43,489 nt of DNA, taken from NCBI GenBank assembly GCA_945897335.1, contig CAMDFP010000006.1, positions 1-43,489 of the forward strand, given 5' to 3'. The notes under the pieces are model-generated. The model worked only from the letters and a program-made list of their open reading frames with translations. It did no database searches and was not told the DNA's origin. A program made the position numbers and the translations under genes. This DNA comes from Asaia bogorensis. Lineage in GTDB: Bacteria > Pseudomonadota > Alphaproteobacteria > SHVZ01. Below, piece by piece: positions 21,304 through 32,187 of the stretch (its first letter is position 1; each line of letters starts with the position of its first letter).

Positions 21304-22899
21304 ATGTCCCGCACCCCGCTTCGCTGCCTCGCCCTCGCCGCCGCGACCGCGCTCGCCCTCGCGGCCGCTCCGGCATCTGCCCAGTCCGTCGCGAGGATGG
21401 CCTCAGACGGCGATCTCAAGATCCTGGATCCGATCTGGACCACGCAGTTCCTGACGGTCGGTCACGGCTACATGATCTACGACGTGCCCTACGCCTACGA
21501 CGAGTCGGGACTGGCGAAGCCGCAGATGATCGGCGAGGACTCCGTCAGCGCCGACGGTCTGACCTGGACCTTCAAGCTCCGCCCGGGCCTCAAGTTCCAG
21601 GACGGCACGCCGGTCACCGCGAAGGACGTCTCCGCCTCGATCCAGCGCTGGGGGGCCCGCGCCACCGCCGGCCGGCTGATCATGAGCGTCGCAGCCGGCT
21701 TCGACATCGTCGACGACCGCACCTTCGTCATCCGCTTCAAGGAGAAGATCGGGCCGTTCCGCGAGATGGTCTCGAACCCGATCAACCCGCTTTTCGTCAT
21801 GCGCGAGGCCGATGCCAAGACCGACCCGAACACGCAGGTGACGAACACCGTCGGCTCCGGGCCCTTCATCTTCGTCAAGGAGGAATGGGTCCCGGGATCC
21901 AAGGTCGTCTACCGGAAGAACCCGGACTACGTGCCGCGCTCGGATGCGCCGAGCAGCATGGCCGGCGCCAAGATCCCGAAACTCGACCGGGTCGAGTGGA
22001 TGTATCTGCCGGACTCTAGCACCGCGGTGCAGGCGCTGATCCGCGCCGAGATCGACATCATCGAGAACCCGCCCGCCGACCTCGTGCCGGTGATGCAGAA
22101 GGCCGGCGGCATCGACATCAGAGTCTTGAGCAAGACCGGCAACCAGATGCTGATGCGGCCGAACCACGCGATCCCGCCCTTCAACAACGTCAAGGCCCGC
22201 CAGGCGCTGCTCTACGCCGTCGACCAGGAGGCCTATCTCGCCGCCGGCATCGGCAATCTCGACTACGGCCAGGTGTGCTGGGCGGTGTTCATGTGCAACA
22301 CGCCGCTCGAATCCAATGCCGGCGTGAAGGACTGGGCCAACACCAAGGACCCGAACCGCAAGGCGAAGGCCAAGGCGCTGCTGGCCGAGAGCGGCTACAA
22401 CGGCGAGCCGATCGTCGTCTTCAAGGTGACCGACAGCCCGATCATCGCCGCCATGGGCGAGGTCACGGCACAGCTACTGACCGAAGTCGGCTTCAAGGTC
22501 GACCTGCAGAGCGTCGACACCTCCACCTTCGGCACGCGGCGCGTGATCAAGGACCCGCCCTCGCAGAACCGTGCCGGCTGGCACATTGCGCAGAGCTGGG
22601 CCGCCGGCCCGGTTTCGGGCGATCCGCTCTCCAACAACTTCACCCCGACGCCGTGCACGGGGACCGGCTTCTTCGGCTGGCCGTGCGATGAGAACCTGGA
22701 GAAGATCCGCCGCCGCTTCCTCACCGCCGCGACGCTGGAGGAGCGGAAGGCCCTGGTCGCCGAGTTCCAGGCGCCGATGTACGAGCACGTCCCGTACATC
22801 CCGCTCGGCCAGTTCCGCACGCCGTCGGCCTTCCGCAGCACCATTTCCGGCGTGCTCCCGGGGCCGCGCCTGGTGATGTGGAACATCAGCAAGCAGTAG
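21304..22899 (+). CDS. ABC transporter substrate-binding protein, peptide/nickel (SBP_bac_5) family
   Basis: A 531-residue periplasmic receptor of the DppA/OppA type. The signal is MSRTPLRCLALAAATALALA ending PASAQ, cleaving near residue 28. Family landmarks include DGLTWTFKLRPGLKFQDGTP, KDVSASIQRW, TNTVGSGPFIF and NVKARQALLYAVDQ. GGAGG sits before the ATG at 21304. Permease and ATPase genes usually flank such a receptor, but none are present here, so it either uses permeases encoded elsewhere or delivers ligand differently. Linked to the enolase-family gene (24-base gap), it may bind the same substrate or its precursor. Confidence 0.93.
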   Translation: MSRTPLRCLALAAATALALAAAPASAQSVARMASDGDLKILDPIWTTQFLTVGHGYMIYDVPYAYDESGLAKPQMIGEDSVSADGLTWTFKLRPGLKFQDGTPVTAKDVSASIQRWGARATAGRLIMSVAAGFDIVDDRTFVIRFKEKIGPFREMVSNPINPLFVMREADAKTDPNTQVTNTVGSGPFIFVKEEWVPGSKVVYRKNPDYVPRSDAPSSMAGAKIPKLDRVEWMYLPDSSTAVQALIRAEIDIIENPPADLVPVMQKAGGIDIRVLSKTGNQMLMRPNHAIPPFNNVKARQALLYAVDQEAYLAAGIGNLDYGQVCWAVFMCNTPLESNAGVKDWANTKDPNRKAKAKALLAESGYNGEPIVVFKVTDSPIIAAMGEVTAQLLTEVGFKVDLQSVDTSTFGTRRVIKDPPSQNRAGWHIAQSWAAGPVSGDPLSNNFTPTPCTGTGFFGWPCDENLEKIRRRFLTAATLEERKALVAEFQAPMYEHVPYIPLGQFRTPSAFRSTISGVLPGPRLVMWNISKQ

Positions 22900-22995
22900 G
22901 GAGTGGCGCTCCGCCGGACCCGACAGTTCGTTTAGGACTTGCTCACCCGGATACCGTTTCAAGCCTGCGACCTTTGGGATGTCACAGACGGGCGA

Positions 22996-23014
22996 GTATT
23001 TATCCTGTATTTAT
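22996..23014 (+). repeat. Direct repeat phased by one helical turn upstream of the sensor cyclase
   Basis: GTATTTAT occurs at 22996-23003 and 23007-23014, separated by CCT, giving an 11-base period. It sits in an AT-rich patch 32 bases before the GTG at 23046. Repeats on one face of the helix can bind a tandem or dimeric regulator. The second copy, TATTTATAG, could also supply a -10 element. Confidence 0.4.
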
Positions 23015-23045
23015 AGCGAACTGTTGTTTTCGCCTGGGATCCCAC

Positions 23046-24710
23046 GTGGCCCGACGTTCGTTCATCCTGCCGCTGCTCGCGCTTCTATTGGCGGCCGTCG
23101 GCGCATGGCCAGCCCAGGCGCAGGACAATTTCTGGCGCGTGCGCCTCCAGCTCAAATGGCTGCATCAGTTCCAGTTTGCCGGCTACTACGCCGCGATCGA
23201 GAAGGGCTACTACCGCGACGTCGGCCTGGACGTGCAGCTCATCGAGGCGACCCCGAACGAGGAGCCGGCCCAGGCCGTGCTGCGCGGCGCCGCCGAATAC
23301 GGCATCGCGACATCCGACCTCGTGCTCTATCGCAGCCGTGGGGAGCCGGTGGTGGCGCTGGCGGCCATCTTCCAGCACTCGCCCTATGCGCTCGTCACCT
23401 CGGACAAGATCGATCACCTGCACGATCTGATCGGCCGGCGGATCATGATCGAGCCGCATGCCGACGAGCTGATGGCGTATTTCAAGTATGAGGGCATCGC
23501 GAAGGAACGCCTGAGACTGCAGGCGCACAATTTCGACGTCTCCGCGCTGATCAAGGGCGAGGTCGACGCGATGTCGGCCTACTCGACCGACGAGGTCTTC
23601 CTCCTCAAGCAGGCGGGCTTCCCTTATCGGGCGTTCTCGCCGCGGTCGGGCGGCATCGACTTCTACGGCGACACGTTGTTCACCACCGAGTCCGAACTCC
23701 GCCAGAACCCGACCCGTGTCCAGGCCTTCGTCGATGCCTCGCTCAAGGGCTGGGCCTATGCCCTCAACAACCCGGAAGAGATCATCGATCTGATCTTCAC
23801 GCGCTACAGCCAGCGCCACAGCCGCGAGCACCTCCGGTTCGAGGCCGAACAGACCAAGCGCCTGGTCCGCCACGACATCGTCGAGCTGGGATACATGAAT
23901 CCCGGGCGCTGGCGGCATATCGCCGAGGTCTACGGCATGCTCGGCATGATGCCGAAGACCTTCAGCCTCGAGGGCTTTCTCCGCCGGGCACCGGAACCGG
24001 TGGACGTCGCCAAGCTCTACTTCATCATCGCGGTCTCGATCGCCACCTTGCTCGTCGTCGGCGGTATCTCGGTCCGCTTCTTCCAGATGAACATCCAGCT
24101 CAGGCGACAGATTGCCGAGCGCGTCACGGTCGAGGCCCGGCTGCGAGAGAGCGAGGAAGAGCTCCGCCGGATCGCCAATGTCGACTCGCTGACCGGCGTC
24201 TCCTCTCGGCGCAACTTCCTTCACCGCTTCGCCAACGAGCTCGAACGGGCGCGGCGCTACAATCGCGACCTGGCGCTGCTCATCTTCGATGTCGACCGCT
24301 TCAAGGCGATCAACGACAGCTTCGGGCATCTTGCGGGCGACGAGGCGCTGCGCTGCCTCTGCGAGGCGGCGACCGGCGCCGTCCGCCAGACCGACCTGAT
24401 CGGCCGGGTCGGCGGCGAGGAGTTCGGCGTGCTGCTTCCCGAGACCTCGATCGACGGTGCGCTCCGGACGGCGGAGCGGATCAGGCATGCGGCCGAGATC
24501 CTCGACGTCATCGCCGGCCCCCACCGGATCCGGCTGACGGTCAGCGTCGGCGGCACCATGGTCAGGCCCCACGACACCGTCGGCAGCGCCATCGCCCGGA
24601 CCGATGGCGCGCTCTACGAGGCCAAGCGTGCCGGCCGGAACCGCACCGTCCTCTACGCCTACGGCCAGGAACCGGAGAAGACGGTCGCGGACGAGCAGCG
24701 AGCGACCTGA
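23046..24710 (+). CDS. Membrane diguanylate cyclase with NMT1/THI5-like periplasmic sensor
   Basis: A 554-residue fusion. Residues 1-26 are a signal peptide. Residues about 33-260 match NMT1/THI5-like (ThiY-type) binding domains, with LQLKWLHQFQFAGYYAA and EKGYYRDVGLDVQLIEA. A membrane helix follows at 324-346, then a short coiled linker, then a GGDEF domain (377-540). The active site is GGEEF (456-460), and the inhibitory I-site RQTD (447-450) lies five residues before it. It should make cyclic di-GMP in response to a periplasmic ligand, perhaps a pyrimidine related to thiamine. GTG 23046 gives the signal peptide, and the frame open from 22878 overlaps the previous gene. Confidence 0.9.
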   Translation: MARRSFILPLLALLLAAVGAWPAQAQDNFWRVRLQLKWLHQFQFAGYYAAIEKGYYRDVGLDVQLIEATPNEEPAQAVLRGAAEYGIATSDLVLYRSRGEPVVALAAIFQHSPYALVTSDKIDHLHDLIGRRIMIEPHADELMAYFKYEGIAKERLRLQAHNFDVSALIKGEVDAMSAYSTDEVFLLKQAGFPYRAFSPRSGGIDFYGDTLFTTESELRQNPTRVQAFVDASLKGWAYALNNPEEIIDLIFTRYSQRHSREHLRFEAEQTKRLVRHDIVELGYMNPGRWRHIAEVYGMLGMMPKTFSLEGFLRRAPEPVDVAKLYFIIAVSIATLLVVGGISVRFFQMNIQLRRQIAERVTVEARLRESEEELRRIANVDSLTGVSSRRNFLHRFANELERARRYNRDLALLIFDVDRFKAINDSFGHLAGDEALRCLCEAATGAVRQTDLIGRVGGEEFGVLLPETSIDGALRTAERIRHAAEILDVIAGPHRIRLTVSVGGTMVRPHDTVGSAIARTDGALYEAKRAGRNRTVLYAYGQEPEKTVADEQRAT

Positions 24711-24719
24711 GGTCCCCCG

Positions 24720-26132
24720 TCAGGGACAGACCGGCGGACGCCCGAGGCGCTGGCGGATGTCACCGAGCGCCTTCTCGATCGCGAGCGCGGCAGCCAGCAG
24801 CGCCTCTTCGGTTCTCTTGGCCGTGACGAGTTGAAGCCCGACCGGCAGCCGGTCGGGATCGAAGGCGACCGGCATCGACAAAGCGCACATGTCCCAGACG
24901 TTGAAGGGAGAGACGTTGCGCCCGATGCGGAGCGTGGTCAGGCGGAAGGCGTCGCGGTCTTGGACCTGGTCCATGCGCGGCGCCGTCACCGCCGTGGTCG
25001 GGAGCGCAAGCACGTCGATGCCTTCCAGCCGTGCATGCGCGCGGGCCGACATCGCCGGACGGGCGCGCTGGCGCGAGAGATACTCCGCCGCCGGAATGTC
25101 GCCGAAAGTCTTCAGCCTCGCCCAGACATTGGCGTCGAGCTCAGGCACCCAGTCCTTGAACTCGGTCGAGACGATGGCGAAACCTTCCGGCACGCCGACG
25201 CTGCCATTGGCCATGTACTTGACCGCTTCCTCGACCTCGGGCATCGGCACCGGAACGAGGATCGCGCCCTTGGCCTCCAGCTCCTTCAGCGTCGCCTCGA
25301 TGGCTTCGGCGATGCCGGGGCCGCAGTCATCGAAGAAGTAGCGGTCGGCAACACCGATGCGGAGCCCCGCCAAGGGCCGCGCATCCAGCTTTCGCCAGAG
25401 GTCCGGCCAGGCATGGCCGGCCGGGTCGATGGCGGCGAATCCAAATGCCGTGTCGGCGACCGAGAGCGCCAGCACGCCCGGGCAGTCGAGCGACGGGCTC
25501 AAGGGCGGCGCGCCCGCTCCAGACCAACGGCCGATCGAGGTCTTGAGGCCGACCACGCCGGCGAGCGAGGCCGGCATGCGGATCGACCCGCCGGCATCGC
25601 TGCCGACGCTGACCACCGCCGATCCCTCCCACAGGCTGCCGCCGGCGCCGGAGGTGGAGCCGCCGGTGCCGCGGTGATGGACGGCATCCCACGGATTCCA
25701 GGGCGCACCCCAATGGGCATTTCCGCCGATGCCGCCGAAGGCGAAGGGCACCGTATGGGTCTTGCCCGGGAAGACGGCGAGCTGGCGGCGGAGCCCCGCG
25801 ACGATCGGCCCCTCCTCCTCGTATTTCGCCGGCAGGCGCCGTGCGGTGCCGGCATAGGTGGGCGTGCCGCGGATGCCGTAGACGTCCTTGATCGAGATCG
25901 GCAGGCCCTGCATGGGTCCGAGGTCGGCGCCGACTCCGAAGGCAGCCTCGGCAGCGCGCGCCTGAGTCTCGGCGGCCTCGCCGAGCCAGAGCTTGTAGGC
26001 GTTCAGCTTCTCGCCGGTCCGTGCGTGCCGCTCGGCGGCCTCCCGCCAGAGCGCGAGCGGCGTGACCTCTCCCGCGCGGAGGGCCGCCCACAGGCGATGG
26101 GCGGGCGTATCGGCGAGTGTAAAGCGGCTCAT
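24720..26132 (-). CDS. Amidase signature family hydrolase
   Basis: A 470-residue cytoplasmic amidase. The Ser-cisSer-Lys triad is visible: K82 in PISIKDVYG, S159 in TGGSTSG, and S183 in GSDAGGSIRMPAS. Such enzymes hydrolyse amide bonds in small molecules, and related proteins include GatA. This one is shorter at the C-terminus than typical GatA and has no GatB/GatC neighbours, so it is probably catabolic. It converges with the cyclase gene (nine bases between stops) and lies 12 bases downstream of the EamA gene, so the two are probably cotranscribed. It is the nearest candidate for cleaving a gamma-glutamyl amide, but nothing in the sequence shows this. Confidence 0.9.
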   Translation of the reverse strand: MSRFTLADTPAHRLWAALRAGEVTPLALWREAAERHARTGEKLNAYKLWLGEAAETQARAAEAAFGVGADLGPMQGLPISIKDVYGIRGTPTYAGTARRLPAKYEEEGPIVAGLRRQLAVFPGKTHTVPFAFGGIGGNAHWGAPWNPWDAVHHRGTGGSTSGAGGSLWEGSAVVSVGSDAGGSIRMPASLAGVVGLKTSIGRWSGAGAPPLSPSLDCPGVLALSVADTAFGFAAIDPAGHAWPDLWRKLDARPLAGLRIGVADRYFFDDCGPGIAEAIEATLKELEAKGAILVPVPMPEVEEAVKYMANGSVGVPEGFAIVSTEFKDWVPELDANVWARLKTFGDIPAAEYLSRQRARPAMSARAHARLEGIDVLALPTTAVTAPRMDQVQDRDAFRLTTLRIGRNVSPFNVWDMCALSMPVAFDPDRLPVGLQLVTAKRTEEALLAAALAIEKALGDIRQRLGRPPVCP

Positions 26133-28928: not shown

Positions 28929-28999
28929 GCACCGTTCGCCCCGCCCCTTGAGCTTCTGTATGCTCGGTGGCGCGGCAGGCATGCAGGAGGAGTTCGGAC

Positions 29000-30316
29000 A
29001 TGCGGAGACTGCTTCGTACCATCGTCGCCCTGGCGGCCGTTGCCGGCGCACCGGCTCTCGCCGACGGCCTCAGCCGATTCGAAAAGGAGATCAAGCCGAA
29101 CCTGGGGAAGATCGACCTCACCTACCGCAGCGCCACGGCGCTCGGGCAGAGCGGCTTCGCTCTCGAGGACGTGCGCGCGGTCCTTCCCGGCGACACGCCG
29201 GATGCCAAGCCCACGCCGGTCGCCGCCAAGCGGATCGTCGTCGAGGACATCGACCTCGACCCCATCGGCAAGGACGAAGCCCCTCACTTCCTCAGGATGC
29301 GCGTCGAAGGGGCGACGGCGGCCGGACAGGCCGACGACTGGCGCCGCCAGTACGGCATTCCCGATGTCCCCCTCGACTTCGCGATCGACTACCGCCTGGA
29401 TGCCGCACGCAAGGTCTTCACGCTCAATCGCCTGGAACTGGCGCAGCCTGGACTTCTCAGGATCGAGCTCGGCTTCATCCTCGACGGCGTCACGCCCGCC
29501 AGCTTCAAGGATGCTGACACGTCCAAGGACGACATCTCGCTCCGTACGGCGACGCTGGTCTACGAGGACAGCTCGTTCCTCGCCAGGCTGGTGCCGGCCC
29601 TCGCCGCCGAGCAGAAGAAGACCGCCGAGGCATTCGTCGCCGAAGGCCTGGCTATTCTCGGCGTCATTGCGATGACCCAGAGCCCGAAGGCCGTCGAGGT
29701 GTTCGACGTGATCGCCTCGTTCATGAGCGACTTCCGCCAGCTCAAGGGCCCGCTTCGCCTGACCGTGAGCCCGCCCCGGAACCTGTCGACGGCGGACATG
29801 GACAAGATCGAAGTGGCGAACGCCATCATCGACGTCTTCGGTCTTTCGGCGACATATGCCGGTACCCGGCCGGGCGCCGCCCTCGCCGCGGTCAAGCCTG
29901 CCGACCGCGCAGGCAACGCCTCCGCCGCACCGTCGTCGGGGGGCGTCGCCTGCAAGCCCGGCCAGCGCCTGTTCGCCCATTCCGACGGCGGCTGGTGGTC
30001 GGCCACCGTCCGCGAGGCGACGCAGTCGAGCCAGCGCTGCGTGGTGCGCCTCGAAGGCTCCGACAGCGACGACGACGTGGTGATCGCCGCCGGCGACATG
30101 ATGGCCTGGTCGATCGATGGCCCCGGCGAGGCAGCCAAGGGCTGCCGCAAGGGTGACCGCGTCTGGATCAAGTCGGAGGGCGGCTGGTTCCCTGCGCTGG
30201 TTCGGCAGACCGCGCGGCCCGGGGCCGCCTGCGTCGTCCGCCTCGAGGACGACGAGTACGCCGAGGACGAGACGGTGGAGCTGCGCCGCGTCCGGGTGAT
30301 CAAGCCCGCAGGCTGA
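29000..30316 (+). CDS. Exported protein with two C-terminal Tudor/SH3-like repeats
   Basis: A 438-residue protein with a signal peptide (MRRLLRTIVALAAVAGAPALA). Residues about 22-300 form an unrecognised, mixed alpha/beta region. It is followed by a Pro/Ala-rich linker and two tandem repeats of about 50 residues. The first runs from CKPGQRLFAHSDGGWWSATV to about residue 375. The second begins CRKGDRVWIKSEGGWFPALV. Each has Cys-x-x-Gly start, GGWW/GGWF, a CVVRLE strand and an acidic loop (SDSDDD, DDEYAEDE). The pattern matches small Tudor/Agenet-like or SH3 barrels. AGGAGG (28985-28990) precedes ATG 29000. Function unknown. Confidence 0.85.
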   Translation: MRRLLRTIVALAAVAGAPALADGLSRFEKEIKPNLGKIDLTYRSATALGQSGFALEDVRAVLPGDTPDAKPTPVAAKRIVVEDIDLDPIGKDEAPHFLRMRVEGATAAGQADDWRRQYGIPDVPLDFAIDYRLDAARKVFTLNRLELAQPGLLRIELGFILDGVTPASFKDADTSKDDISLRTATLVYEDSSFLARLVPALAAEQKKTAEAFVAEGLAILGVIAMTQSPKAVEVFDVIASFMSDFRQLKGPLRLTVSPPRNLSTADMDKIEVANAIIDVFGLSATYAGTRPGAALAAVKPADRAGNASAAPSSGGVACKPGQRLFAHSDGGWWSATVREATQSSQRCVVRLEGSDSDDDVVIAAGDMMAWSIDGPGEAAKGCRKGDRVWIKSEGGWFPALVRQTARPGAACVVRLEDDEYAEDETVELRRVRVIKPAG

Positions 30317-30993: not shown

Positions 30994-32187
30994 TTGGCGT
31001 CCCCAGTACAGGCGAACCCGTTCCGCGAAATCCGGCGGCATCTCTATGCGCTAGTCGAGACCGGCTATCAGGGCTATCCGCCCGGCCGCGCCTTCGACAT
31101 CGCGTTGGTCGCGGTGATCCTCGTCAGTATCACCGCCACCGCCATGGCCACAGTGCCAGAGACGAGCGAAGCCTGGCTCAGGGTTTACCGGGCGGTCGAG
31201 TGGACGGCCGTCGCCATCTTCACCGTCGAATACCTGGTTCGGGCGTGGGTCGCGGTCGAGGATCCGCACGCACCGGCCGAGCGACCCTGGGCCTGGCGGC
31301 TCCGCTATCTGGTGACGCCGCTGGCGCTGGTCGACCTCGTCGCCATCCTGCCGAGCTACCTCGAGCTGATCTTTGGAACCGCTTGGGAGTTCACCCTGGT
31401 CCTCCGAGTCCTCCGCCTGTTCAAGCTGCTGCGCTTCACCGGCGAGTTCGACACCATCTTCGCCGTCCTCCGTTCCGAGCGACGGCCTCTGATCGCCACA
31501 TTCTGTGTCATCGCCGTGATCCTTCTGCTGATCTCGACCATGGCCTATGTCGCCGAGCACGACGCCCAGCCGGACAAGTTCGGCAGCATCCCCGCCGCCT
31601 TCTACTGGGGGATCGTCACGCTGGCGACCGTCGGCTACGGCGACATCGCGCCGGTCACCCCTCTCGGCCGTGCCACCGGCGCGCTCGGCGCCGTGCTCGG
31701 AATCCTCACCTTCGCCATGCCGGCCGGCATCATCGCCTCCGGGTTCATCGAGGAGCTGCGGCGGCGCGACTTCATCGTCACCTGGCAGCTGGTCGCCAAG
31801 GTGCCGCTGTTCCGGCACCTGACGGCCCCGCGGATCGCCAGCGTCGCGCTCGTGCTCAGGCCGATGCGGTTCGAGGCCGGCGCCACCGTCTCCCGCAAGG
31901 GTGCGGAAGCCGATGGCATGTACTTCGTCGTCTCGGGCGAGCTTGTGGTCGAGATCCCGAGTCACCCGGTGACGCTCCGGAGCGGCGCCTTCTTCGGCGA
32001 GATGTCGCTGCTCGACGGCGGCAAGCGATCGAACACCGTGCGCGCCATCACCTCCTGCGACCTGCTGCATCTGGGAGCCGCGGAGTTCCGGCAGCTCCTC
32101 GCCGCCACGCCGCACCTGGAGGCCGAGATCCGCCAGGTCGCGGGCGCGCGCCGGCGGGACAACGAGGCGCACGACCAGCCTTCCTAG
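30994..32187 (+). CDS. Cyclic-nucleotide-gated potassium channel (MlotiK1-like)
   Basis: A 397-residue membrane protein. There are six membrane segments, with an S4-like helix holding R138, R141 and R147 (LRVLRLFKLLR). The potassium selectivity filter TVGYGD is at 212-217, with an inner helix behind it. A cyclic-nucleotide-binding domain occupies 283-380. Its phosphate-binding cassette is FFGEMSLLDGGKRSNTV (333-349) with the expected arginine at 345. The sequence AEHDAQPDKFGSIPAAFYWG before the filter and FIEELRRRDF after the inner helix match the well-studied MlotiK1 family. It starts at TTG 30994 with a weak AGG site. Its stop overlaps the convergent kinase gene by four bases. Confidence 0.9.
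   Translation: MASPVQANPFREIRRHLYALVETGYQGYPPGRAFDIALVAVILVSITATAMATVPETSEAWLRVYRAVEWTAVAIFTVEYLVRAWVAVEDPHAPAERPWAWRLRYLVTPLALVDLVAILPSYLELIFGTAWEFTLVLRVLRLFKLLRFTGEFDTIFAVLRSERRPLIATFCVIAVILLLISTMAYVAEHDAQPDKFGSIPAAFYWGIVTLATVGYGDIAPVTPLGRATGALGAVLGILTFAMPAGIIASGFIEELRRRDFIVTWQLVAKVPLFRHLTAPRIASVALVLRPMRFEAGATVSRKGAEADGMYFVVSGELVVEIPSHPVTLRSGAFFGEMSLLDGGKRSNTVRAITSCDLLHLGAAEFRQLLAATPHLEAEIRQVAGARRRDNEAHDQPS

Follow-up and report, generated by a model that had tools for sequence, protein, structure and literature searches.

The window (the whole stretch of DNA analysed, 43,489 nucleotides) contains a gene for a protein in which an NMT1-type domain is joined through a membrane helix to a GGDEF domain. 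The following features were assigned to the gene and its surroundings.

22888 to 24722, no strand: stretch found in the window but missing between the corresponding pair of genes in three congeners (flank alignment)
23046 to 24710, plus strand: sensor-diguanylate cyclase gene, 554 aa, GTG start (ORF, translation and Pfam scan)
23046 to 23123, plus strand: signal peptide region, residues 1-26 (hydropathy; predicted cleavage site AQA/Q)
23124 to 23990, plus strand: periplasmic NMT1-type two-lobed sensor domain, about residues 27-315 (Pfam match at 41-245, model and fold matches)
23154 to 23189, plus strand: first-lobe motif KWLHQFQFAGYY, residues 37-48 (sensor-family alignments; its invariance comes partly from the search pattern)
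23652 to 23672, plus strand: sensor-family-specific second-lobe motif GIDFYGD, residues 203-209 (alignments)
24006 to 24179, plus strand: continuous membrane-plus-stalk helix, residues 321-378 (full-length model)
24018 to 24074, plus strand: membrane helix, residues 325-343 (highest hydropathy window)
24174 to 24644, plus strand: GGDEF domain, residues 377-533 (Pfam; alignment to 3ign and WspR)
24384 to 24395, plus strand: I-site RQTD, residues 447-450 (sequence)
24411 to 24425, plus strand: active-site motif GGEEF, residues 456-460 (sequence)

The Pfam scan of the 554-residue protein placed NMT1 (PF09084) at residues 41-245 (E 3.6e-48; 164.8 bits against a curated cut-off of 20.5; positions 1-215 of 216 in the profile covered) and GGDEF at residues 377-533 (E 1.7e-39), and no other family was found at E ≤ 0.001. 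In a 19-residue scan, hydropathy exceeded 1.4 only at residues 1-25, the signal peptide, and at residues 317-350, which include the membrane helix. Both analyses bore out the sequence-only reading of a signal peptide, an NMT1 domain, a membrane helix and a GGDEF domain in one polypeptide. We take NMT1 to belong to the PBP clan, and a periplasmic PBP-clan domain, a membrane helix and a GGDEF domain in one chain are the layout of the CdgH/RmcA kind. In the AlphaFold2 model of the full-length protein (mean pLDDT 87.5, pTM 0.58, 12 sequences), residues 321-378 formed one unbroken helix running from the membrane to the GGDEF domain, and neither a HAMP nor a PAS domain was found between the two in the Pfam scan or the model. 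The GGDEF domain aligned over its length with solved diguanylate cyclases, the best being 3ign (E 7.7e-35), and its GGEEF, DVDRFK, N, D, GH and AGD motifs aligned with those of 3ign and WspR. The RQTD motif is five residues before GGEEF, the usual I-site spacing, and the earlier description of both motifs as intact stands. Cyclase activity is predicted from these intact-looking motifs and the GGDEF alignment.

On either side of the gene, the window aligned up to position 22887 and from position 24723/24724 with the corresponding loci of three congeners (L110, L111 and L112). In genomes G001, G002 and G005, 17-18 bases separate the SBP_bac_5 gene upstream from the amidase gene downstream, compared with a gap of 1,835-1,836 bases in the window. 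In G003 the SBP_bac_5 gene was followed by other sequence in the aligned part, and G004 gave weaker matches only. No full-length match to the protein was found in the five congeners, the matches listed being cyclase domains or other binding proteins. By the flank alignment, the stretch may be a lone one-gene insert or may have been lost in the three congeners. Since the gene is absent from all five congeners and its kin are scattered, the distribution suggests that the insert was gained rather than lost. Its GC content (0.66) and third-position GC content (0.89) are like those of the neighbouring genes, and a search for mobile-element ends in 22850-24780 turned up short repeats that look like chance matches, with neither a clear pair of termini nor a duplication at the flanks.

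Two other genes on the plus strand of the window were recorded. One at 30994-32187, about 6 kb downstream of the cyclase gene, codes for an ion-channel protein with Ion_trans and cNMP_binding domains. The other, at 28967-30316, codes for a secreted-looking protein of 449 residues with a sub-threshold Agenet match in its C-terminal half and no clear family.

Fold, spread and outputs of the sensor family

The model of the sensor domain alone (residues 27-330; mean pLDDT 94.0, pTM 0.89, 81 sequences) has the predicted fold of a type II binding protein and matched binding proteins over its whole length. The leading solved folds were ThiY (3ix1, Z 33.1), the thiamin-binding protein 4nmy (Z 31.5) and THI5 (Z 28.5), followed at lower scores by the Bordetella protein 3qsl (Z 25.4), PqqT (Z 24.6) and SsuA (Z 23.6), and Foldseek gave the same leaders. 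The best PDB match by sequence was likewise ThiY (E 1.2e-18). Taken alone, the ranking of modelled folds favours a thiamine-type ligand. The fold group of the sensor also takes in SsuA, CmpA, NrtA, TauA and PqqT, and no solved protein with a nucleobase-binding name was among the 50 fold matches listed.

In trees of 69 and 49 rows, the 27 sensor rows (21 in the second tree) formed one clade with a support of 100/99; the smaller tree was made without 20 of the 69 rows (THI5, SsuA and 18 near-copies or others), which removed the long branches. Eighty relatives were collected with peptide patterns including KWLHQFQF, so that the invariance of this motif is partly built in; a profile search recovered the first-lobe variants KWRHQFQF, QWHHQFQF and KWTHQFQGAGFY. 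Residues Q110, Y207, D209, T213, G235 and W236 were unchanged in 81 of 81 sensor rows. The relatives come from Geobacteraceae, Verrucomicrobiota, Riflebacteria, Methylococcales, Massilia, Duganella, Polaromonas, Bradyrhizobium, Zetaproteobacteria and others, and the closest full-length relative of the protein in the window is the cyclase L161 (61% identity). Across the phylum, the sensor was present at E ≤ 1e-65 in 67 of 398 sampled genomes and at up to five places in one genome. In the family f188, small genomes (about 1.4-3.1 Mb) without PreA carry up to five sensor copies fused to large proteins, an expansion that may point to a ligand.

The C-terminal parts of the 80 relatives, four of which run off their contig, contained HATPase_c in 51 cases, HisKA in 49, GGDEF in 12 and Guanylate_cyc in 6. 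Guanylate_cyc is the output of L052 and L060, L012 has only a PAS domain, and the outputs of L162 and L166 are histidine kinases although their tree names read 'SENSORdgc'. The GGDEF row L014 was sister to the histidine kinase L166 with a support of 100/100. Five changes between kinase and cyclase outputs were counted on the tree, compared with a shuffled mean of 6.84, and the clustering of sensors by output is weak. Judged by these alignments and trees, the sensors make up a family of their own, whose members are attached to histidine kinase, diguanylate cyclase and nucleotide cyclase outputs. Pfam binding-protein profiles are described as also picking up the sensor domains of receptors in the accessible part of the binding-protein survey PMC9602780. 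No study of the NMT1-type sensor family was found in the open-licence PMC literature, and the family is not mentioned in the accessible parts of PMC9870897 and PMC8789113.

It is rather probable that the sensor binds a small solute that is neither of thiamine type nor of nucleobase type, such as a sulfonate, bicarbonate or nitrate, an organic acid or a PQQ-like cofactor, the NMT1 name carrying no information on the ligand. The breadth of the fold group is consistent with this, as is the occurrence of the sensor several times per genome in many unrelated groups. In the part of PMC7373994 available to us, which is work on a xanthine riboswitch, the Breaker-group authors discuss genes associated with the breakdown of purines and describe the NMT1/THI5 label given to them as 'most misleading'. 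However, the folds of SsuA, CmpA, NrtA, TauA and PqqT scored below ThiY, and no positive evidence singles out any one ligand. Among 23 proteins encoded around six close relatives (four cyclases and two histidine kinases), none of the 25 Pfam families listed, out of 37, recurred from one relative to another.

Comparison with pyrimidine-locus and thiamine-type binding proteins

When 385 genomes of the class were searched with a profile, ten sensor fusions scored at least 250 bits, five with GGDEF (by motif) and five histidine kinases. Below these came 46 further places, which to judge by their length are mostly free binding proteins. Eighteen of the 46 were taken with their flanks (L167-L184). 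At 14 of these 18 loci there was at least one gene for dihydropyrimidinase, carbamoylase, PreT, PreA or cytosine deaminase, the queries for these enzymes having come from L181 and L174, which are themselves among the 18; PreA and dihydropyrimidinase were also named by NCBIfam above curated cut-offs. As a control, 16 ThiY-like loci were collected from the same class with ThiY as the query, and none of them held pyrimidine-breakdown genes. Since a TPP riboswitch was present in 12 of these 16 loci, they make a fair thiamine-type reference. No riboswitch reached the threshold in the eight of the 18 binding-protein loci that were scanned. Two free binding proteins of the wider group (L183:5586-8711 and L178:8104-11040) are encoded directly beside dCache-HAMP histidine kinases, an arrangement that resembles a two-gene version of the fused sensor.

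The sensor shares the first-lobe motif KW..Q.QFAGYY with the pyrimidine-locus binding proteins, and K37, W38, Q41, Q43, F44, Y48, G235 and W236 are common to 17-19 of 19 binding-protein rows. The second lobe differs, with GIDFYGD in the sensors versus GVATLEDG in the binding proteins; neither GVATLEDG nor the DWMP of the latter occurs in the sensor. Identity between the sensor in the window and these proteins is 23-31%. A paralog in the same genome (L120:1098-7305, contig 65) is a free NMT1 binding protein that carries KW..Q.QFAGYY, and genes for a GntR regulator and for hydantoinase A and B lie in the same locus. In the window itself, five queries found no breakdown enzyme at E ≤ 1e-10, the ATPase query matching one ABC ATPase. 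PreA was not found over the cut-off in the genome, and one dihydropyrimidinase-type gene lies elsewhere in it (C24).

Eighty-nine sensor loci of about 4-22 kb (the 80 found by pattern, and six and three from two further collections) were checked for breakdown genes. A pyrimidine-breakdown set was near the sensor at one of them, and a weak PreT match was seen at one more. The former is L230:6971-19338 (G330, contig 29), in which a sensor histidine kinase is one gene, a short-chain dehydrogenase, away from a convergent set of PreT, PreA, permeases, a binding protein and dihydropyrimidinase. A general partnership of the sensor with PreA was rejected: at E ≤ 1e-90, 72 of the 76 sensor-bearing genomes, including that of the window, were without it.

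Sensors and pyrimidine-locus binding proteins grouped together with supports of 86/74 and 88/73 in the two trees. A tree that joined the sensors to ThiY was 6.1 log units worse and was not rejected by the AU test (p-AU 0.212). Since this tree was not rejected and the grouping with the binding proteins had only these supports, descent of the sensor from nucleobase-type transporters is the better guess and not a result. That the sensor reads a pyrimidine nucleobase, a hydantoin or a similar ureide, as its transporter cousins may, is a tentative reading that we place on the unlikely side. The eight shared residues, the contrast between the cousin loci and the ThiY-like loci, the kinase L230 beside its PreT-PreA set and the hydantoinase genes of the paralog all point to it. 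Against it are the divergent second lobe, the rarity of breakdown genes and of PreA where the sensor occurs, the tree support of only 88/73, and the assignment of the transporters' own ligand from their neighbour genes. The fuller proposal, that a widespread NMT1-type family was recruited from nucleobase-type transport proteins, was shuffled among outputs and senses a nucleobase, a hydantoin or a related ring compound outside the cell, appears decidedly improbable. If such a sensor were confirmed, the cyclase would tie a nutrient derived from nucleic acids to the decision to attach or swim.

The sequence-only reading had linked the sensor to a vitamin precursor or other small nutrient, citing the motifs QFAGYYAA and GYYRDVGLDV as typical of thiamine-pyrimidine binders. 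Both motifs are present, but only the latter resembles ThiY (GYFAEEGLDV). The former did not hold as a mark of thiamine-pyrimidine binders: all 17 ThiY-type rows have His at the Phe of QFAGYY, and the motif also occurs in the binding proteins beside pyrimidine-breakdown genes. With the ligand-contact residues assigned by alignment rather than from coordinates, the 17 ThiY-type rows have Asp (16) or Glu (1) at site 37, Asn (17) at site 41, Asp (16) at site 43, His (17) at site 44 and Gln-Pro (17) at sites 89-90. The 27 sensor rows have Lys (26) at site 37, Gln (27) at sites 41 and 43 and Phe (25) at site 44, and Gln-Pro at sites 89-90 is absent from all of them. In the alignment, the ThiY signature [D]W..N.DH, QP, YDEL is thus not seen in the sensor, W38 and Y207 being the only residues in common. 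Lys62 and His66 of THI5, which take part in the HMP-P synthase reaction according to the accessible part of PMC10848271, align with A88 and D91 of the sensor. The likeness to ThiY and THI5 stood at the level of the fold and failed at the aligned site residues; as far as the alignment can tell, the pocket residues were not conserved with the NMT1 proteins that bind thiamine pyrimidines, which undermines the proposed thiamine-precursor pocket. The sequence is, on this alignment, evidence against a pocket of the ThiY type for thiamine pyrimidines.

The thiamine supply of the genus was considered as well. ThiC was absent from six of six genomes, including that of the window, whereas the same search found it in 13 of 14 control genomes. 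Since ThiC is absent from all six, they may need the pyrimidine from outside. The only TPP riboswitch of the genome (L127:5448-8981, contig 28) precedes genes for YkoF, an ABC_cobalt permease, an ATPase and CbiQ, which we take to be a known layout for thiamine or HMP uptake, and it is not before an NMT1 gene. In the window, no Rfam family, TPP included, reached the threshold, and no thiamine family was found among the 19 proteins scanned. This leaves a need for HMP, with its predicted uptake placed away from the sensor gene.

Taken together, it is very unlikely that the sensor binds a thiamine precursor (HMP or FAMP) and couples cyclic di-GMP to the supply of the vitamin. The leading folds, the ThiY sequence match, the missing ThiC, the AU test and the shared W38 and Y207 are in its favour. 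They are opposed by the missing ThiY-type and THI5 residues, the position of the riboswitch and the content of the window; moreover, the five congeners that also lack ThiC have no full-length match to the gene. Loss of binding, leaving a constitutive or decaying cyclase, would fit a lone insert without conserved partners, but is scarcely credible given the open frame, the sensor residues conserved in 81 of 81 rows and the intact GGEEF and RQTD.

Proposed mechanism and relation to known systems

We propose, with a probability of roughly 0.7, that the gene encodes a single-pass inner-membrane diguanylate cyclase whose Venus-flytrap sensor belongs to a distinct family with multiple outputs, that it is a lone insert, and that its sequence argues against a ThiY-type pocket. 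The periplasmic NMT1-type domain would close on a small solute. By analogy with CdgH, closure in a dimer may shift the membrane helix together with the stalk helix that continues it, and this shift would set the two GGDEF domains to make cyclic di-GMP. Product inhibition through RQTD is predicted from its sequence. A nucleobase-like or ureide-like nutrient would be only one candidate ligand.

The sensors of cyclic di-GMP enzymes are mostly without assigned ligands. Since one profile finds the sensor in 67 of 398 sampled genomes, a ligand assigned to this one family would carry over to hundreds of kinases and cyclases. The NMT1/THI5 label should be read as a fold and not as thiamine.

Diguanylate cyclases with binding-protein sensors are already known, and the sensor family of this one is uncharacterised. 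For CdgH of Vibrio cholerae, ligand-driven closure and dimer compaction are reported in the accessible part of PMC5431781. CdgH also combines periplasmic binding-protein-like domains, a membrane segment and a GGDEF output; from the part of the work available, however, L-arginine and other amino acids are bound by its two PBPb domains, which are arranged in tandem, compared with one NMT1-type domain here. RmcA of Pseudomonas aeruginosa is likewise a cyclic di-GMP protein with a PBP-clan domain, but its SBP_bac_3 domain senses L-arginine, as stated in the accessible part of a 2022 review (PMC8846402). The same part describes PBP-clan domains as prevalent in cyclic di-GMP proteins, only SBP_bac_3 of 27 families having been studied.

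The FAMP-binding ThiY of Bacillus halodurans (3ix1) superimposes on the sensor model with an rmsd of 2.4 over 289 aligned residues at 20% identity (Z 33.1), but the sensor lacks the D, N, D/V, H and QP site residues of ThiY, and ThiY is a free binding protein. The THI5 HMP-P synthase has the same fold (Z 28.5 for 4esx and 25.8 for 4h65), whereas its Lys62 and His66 are replaced in the alignment. The binding proteins L167-L184 and L120 share the first-lobe motif and the KGW.YA helix with the sensor, but they are free proteins with GVATLEDG and DWMP of their own. The NMT1-domain kinases and cyclases (L009-L088, L162, L166 and L230-L232) have a sensor of the same family and differ in their output, which is a histidine kinase or a Guanylate_cyc domain.
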